From contig JAXHTV010000002.1 of assembly GCA_034189865.1 (NCBI GenBank), positions 62,001 through 126,000 on the forward strand: a stretch of DNA of 64,000 nt, given 5' to 3'. Positions 58,874 to 58,914 of this stretch are shown one piece after another (the stretch's first letter is position 1; every line of letters starts with the position of its first letter). The DNA comes from Pseudomonadota bacterium (GTDB lineage Bacteria > Pseudomonadota > Gammaproteobacteria > UBA5335). A program made the position numbers and the translations under genes. The notes under the pieces are model-generated. The model was not told the origin of the DNA, ran no database searches, and saw only the letters and a program-made list of their open reading frames with translations.

Positions 58874-58914
58874 TTGACGTAAATCAATGGGACGATACAC
58901 GGATCCTTGATACT
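58874..58914 (+). promoter_or_regulatory. Fnr-type box and promoter of the N-ATPase operon
   Basis: TTGACGTAAATCAA (58874-58887) matches TTGAT-N4-ATCAA at nine of ten positions, with the same half-sites as the ccoN box. GATACT (58909-58914; four of six to TATAAT) places the start near 58921, with the box centred within 1 nt of -41.5. The atpD start codon is 45 bases further on. Confidence 0.68.

Follow-up and report, generated by a model that had tools for sequence, protein, structure and literature searches.

The 107-nt intergenic region at 58859-58965 of the window (the whole 64,000-nt stretch of DNA that we analysed) is probably a class II Fnr-activated promoter, which would turn on the N-ATPase operon atpDCQRBEFA(G) at low oxygen. 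This reading comes from an exact Fnr-type box placed 21 nt ahead of a -10-like hexamer, from the four-cysteine Fnr proteins encoded in the genome, and from the same promoter architecture in N-ATPase operons of other genomes. Control of this kind, as judged from the sampled sequences, is lineage-specific and not general to N-ATPases.

The N-ATPase operon

The operon occupies the end of the window and contains the following genes.

58966-60378, forward strand: atpD, N-ATPase beta subunit (TIGR03305, 774 bits; cut-off 752)
60382-60780, forward strand: atpC, epsilon subunit (PF02823)
60777-61088, forward strand: atpQ (PF09527 / TIGR02230)
61072-61434, forward strand: atpR, subunit specific to N-ATPases (PF12966, 80 bits; cut-off 26)
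61439-62179, forward strand: atpB, a subunit (PF00119)
62172-62444, forward strand: atpE, c subunit (PF00137) carrying GEG and ESTAIY and predicted to bind Na+
62446-63234, forward strand: atpF, b subunit (PF00430)
63231-63998, forward strand: atpA, alpha subunit (PF00006), extending past the window end

The gene atpD comes first, and atpQ and atpR precede atpB, which is the gene order of an N-ATPase operon. The C-terminus of AtpF showed a weak similarity to delta/OSCP (PF00213, below the cut-off). A separate F-type-like ATP synthase cluster with alpha and beta genes was found on contig C1, indicating that the N-ATPase is an extra ATPase. ESTxxY is the Na+ motif of the c subunit (PMC6688271), and the ESTAIY of the window AtpE predicts that this N-ATPase transports Na+.

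The Fnr box and the predicted start upstream of atpD

The region in front of atpD contains the following features.

58541-58858: unnamed ORF of 105 aa, predicted membrane protein, directly upstream of the box
58874-58887, forward strand: Fnr/Anr-type box TTGACGTAAATCAA, an exact match to TTGAYNNNNATCAA with a PSSM score near the maximum
58909-58914, forward strand: -10-like GATACT, 21 nt downstream of the box
58921-58922: predicted atpD transcription start, inferred from the position of GATACT

The first-pass annotation had located a box and a GATACT at 58874-58887 and 58909-58914, and both positions were correct. TTGACGTAAATCAA is close to TTGAT-N4-ATCAA, as in class II Fnr-dependent promoters, with one usual variation: one half-site is TTGAC, not TTGAT. 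GATACT had the top -10 score among all spacings from 8 to 39 nt from the box. With the -10 ending at -7, the predicted box centre lies at about -40.5, and moving the start one base downstream would put it at -41.5; the class II placement claimed earlier, within 1 nt of -41.5, agrees with this prediction from the 21-nt gap.

The box lies inside the gap between the ORF stop (58858) and the atpD start (58966). Since atpD is the sole gene downstream of this gap, the box, read forward, has no other target than the atp operon. We also considered whether the operon is transcribed together with the upstream ORF. The ORF had no match in Pfam and NCBIfam searches, a terminator scan between it and atpD found none, and inspection by eye of the gap revealed only a weak 5-bp stem.

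Fnr boxes and Fnr proteins of the genome

Exact matches to TTGAYNNNNATCAA occurred at 23 distinct places in the 2.9-Mb genome, and the reversed pattern, used as a control, at none. Three of the matches are in the window, upstream of atpD, at ccoN (42861) and in the glgC/glgB gap (37830). The ccoN site served as an internal comparison.

42861-42874, forward strand: Fnr box of the ccoN (cbb3 oxidase) promoter, with GACAAT 22 nt downstream

Several of the genomic boxes are at promoters of low-oxygen genes, namely ccoN, a hemN-like gene (box followed by TAGAGT at 21 nt), a hemerythrin gene (TAATAT at 22 nt) and nosL-like genes. None of the exact boxes genome-wide was near the F-type-like cluster on C1.

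Some of the 23 boxes are inside genes and are probably fortuitous, and the N-ATPase operons closest to that of the window do not have a box (see below). Both observations would fit a chance match upstream of atpD, with no regulatory role and with the operon transcribed from a different promoter. We regard this as very unlikely, because the box is exact, intergenic, correctly oriented and followed by the best -10 at the right spacing; the reversed pattern was absent from the genome; a consensus scan of 58300-59100 found no sigma-70-type promoter; and the architecture is conserved in N-ATPase promoters of other genomes.

The exact box at 37830-37843 is a separate observation. It is situated in the gap that separates a glgC-like from a divergent glgB-like gene, and it hints that glycogen synthesis may be under oxygen control.

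The window encodes a candidate activator.

51748-52506, reverse strand: fnr, four-cysteine [4Fe-4S] type (NF008365, 301 bits; cut-off 228)

Its product has CGNCSLRELC, a fourth cysteine and an ETVSR recognition helix. The gene is about 6.4 kb from the box, close to the 6.5 kb given earlier. A second four-cysteine Fnr-like protein is encoded on contig C2 at about 32436-33299, roughly 30 kb before the window. It scored 220 bits against the NF008365 cut-off of 228, just under it; it too has the ETVSR helix, and its gene is close to the hemN-like gene that itself has an Fnr box. The genome therefore holds two cognate four-cysteine Fnr proteins, and the window fnr is not necessarily the activator. 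The first-pass annotation had pointed to the nearby fnr; the gene is present with its four cysteines, but proximity does not give the identity of the activator.

A real box could accordingly be bound by the second Fnr or by another Crp/Fnr protein, in which case the oxygen range might differ and NO would be a possible signal. We consider this possible, with a probability well short of even. The score of the second protein, its position and the helix shared by both Fnr proteins favour it, whereas no Dnr-type protein (an Fnr-like helix without cysteines) was found in the genome, and the third Crp/Fnr member, the only other one above the cut-off, is Crp-like in appearance. Either Fnr would place the operon under low-oxygen control all the same, so this alternative overlaps with the preferred reading.

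The palindrome and the atpD leader

The core promoter is covered by a second element.

58893-58935, no strand assigned: imperfect 43-bp palindrome spanning the -10 and the predicted start, with 15 of 19 arm positions pairing

None of 400 shuffles reached this pairing. No copy was present among the other loci and N-ATPase promoters compared. It is a possible second operator. A different regulator acting through it, such as one that senses salt or pH, might even dominate, with Fnr in a minor role. The pairing and the uniqueness of the element among these loci are in line with such a regulator, as are publications connecting N-ATPases with salt stress and with acid stress (PMC5376962, PMC9927469); however, no known regulator matched the palindrome, and the other N-ATPase promoters compared do not have it. 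We judge this unlikely, though less so than a chance match, and Fnr remains the preferred regulator.

The predicted atpD leader also contains a perfect 6-bp hairpin, CTGTGT-ATCGC-ACACAG, at 58926-58942. The fold of the leader was ordinary overall (z -0.77).

Conservation across N-ATPase operons

We compared about 155 N-ATPase operons, in which lineages are unequally represented. The scoring matrix was hand-written and untrained, weaker matches (11-13 bits, several loci) were left uncounted, and the atpD starts of distant genes are estimates from alignment. A same-family relative of the window had no sequence upstream of atpD in this sample.

In the atpD tree, the clade nearest the window has 27 tips, and a strong box was found in the window alone; none was present in the other 26, most of which come from a methanotroph order. 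That order was identified as the one containing Methylovulum because one genome, G395, was 100% identical to Methylovulum miyakonense, and none of its approximately 50 sampled operons had a strong box. The sampled genome loci taken together with these operons lacked it in almost every case.

Family f140, a different gammaproteobacterial family that includes Rheinheimera sp. YQF-1 (locus 100% identical), gave a different picture. A strong box occurred within 200 nt of atpD in 12 of its 27 distinct promoters, compared with a mean of 0.10 and a maximum of 3 for 118 permuted decoy matrices, and box density was 2.22 per kb versus 0.09 per kb farther upstream. The box-bearing operons all belong to one clade (13 of 16 members, support 0.995). 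In the alignment of this clade on the box, half-site conservation was 97%, compared with 67% in the -10 columns, 62% in the central four bases and 50% in the flanks; these promoters are related and hence not independent of each other. Outside f140, a strong box was within 200 nt of atpD in 2 of 127 operons, namely that of the window and that of G359, a member of a third family in which TATCGT follows the box at 21 nt. The mean -10 score over all box-bearing promoters peaked at exactly 21 nt (+1.82 bits) and was negative at every other spacing; most of these N-ATPase promoters have the 21-nt spacing from box to -10 seen in the window.

Two further loci had a candidate box. In Shewanella sp. SG41-4, TTGATCTGCGTCAA stands roughly 390 nt ahead of atpD and is followed after 21 nt by TTTAAT (by eye). 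A short ORF is situated between this distal box and atpD. In Desulfamplus, TTGAATCTTATCAA was above the threshold with one background and below it with another, so it is only a possible case. Box presence required at least six state changes on the tree, and the window, G359 and f140 cases stood apart.

We had first expected the absence of the box in the nearest relatives to weigh against Fnr control. We did not keep this as the verdict, although the absence, like the TTGAC half-site, still speaks against the preferred reading.

The first-pass annotation had looked to conservation in related genomes for support. The box is missing from the nearest relatives, but it is kept with the 21-nt spacing in the f140 clade and recurs in a third family. 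The comparison across operons thus makes Fnr control of the N-ATPase well supported where the box occurs, as a prediction from promoter sequences; it seems to have had more than one origin in the sampled genomes and does not extend to N-ATPases in general. What supports Fnr control in the window is the site as such, together with comparable promoters in other genomes; the nearest relatives lend it no support. The original proposal of Fnr control is therefore upheld for some lineages, on the strength of the box, its 21-nt distance from the -10, a four-cysteine Fnr and conservation elsewhere.

Proposed mechanism and significance

A well-formed Fnr box, together with its retention in a related-class group, indicates that the pump is probably on when oxygen is low. 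With declining oxygen, Fnr in its iron-sulfur form would dimerise and bind the box; bound Fnr would then recruit RNA polymerase and increase transcription of the atp operon, alongside the cbb3 oxidase genes and those for heme. The N-ATPase would most likely act as an ATP-driven ion pump that maintains an ion gradient under oxygen-limited respiration, and the pumped ion is predicted from the c-subunit motif to be Na+.

We somewhat favour a broader reading, in which Fnr control of the N-ATPase is a recurrent module that several gammaproteobacterial lineages acquired independently and that selection has kept in one of them. The N-ATPase would then join the cbb3 oxidase in a low-oxygen energy programme, instead of serving only as a salt-stress pump. 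With a conserved Fnr promoter, the N-ATPase can be tested under a defined condition, low oxygen, and for a defined regulator. Cultured carriers of the box, such as the Shewanella strain and members of the family that contains Rheinheimera, could help to address why an ATP-driven pump runs when oxygen is scarce.

Comparison with known systems

The FNR site of Escherichia coli nirB is listed at -41.5 (PMC3688515). In E. coli genomes, the sequence just upstream of nirB consists of TTGATTTACATCAA, 21 nt and TAAGGT. The window promoter resembles this class II promoter in its 14-bp box, 21-nt gap and -10 hexamer; it differs in having an N-ATPase target, a TTGAC half-site and a core promoter within a palindrome.

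We found no earlier report of a link between Fnr and N-ATPases in the literature searched. Nitrospira marina has higher levels of its N-type ATPase subunits when oxygen is low (PMC8115632). The text of that paper does not contain the word Fnr, the organism belongs to another phylum and the data are proteomic only; the increase independently indicates that levels of an N-type ATPase can go up when oxygen is scarce, and the Fnr-type promoter suggests a class of mechanism to look for behind it.

The window operon shares gene order, AtpR and an ESTxxY c subunit with the atpDCQRBEFAG N-ATPase operons of Dibrova et al. (2010), as these are described in PMC6688271, and like them it is additional to an F-type ATPase. 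It differs from them in its predicted oxygen-responsive promoter; discussion of N-ATPases usually centres on salt or acid stress.
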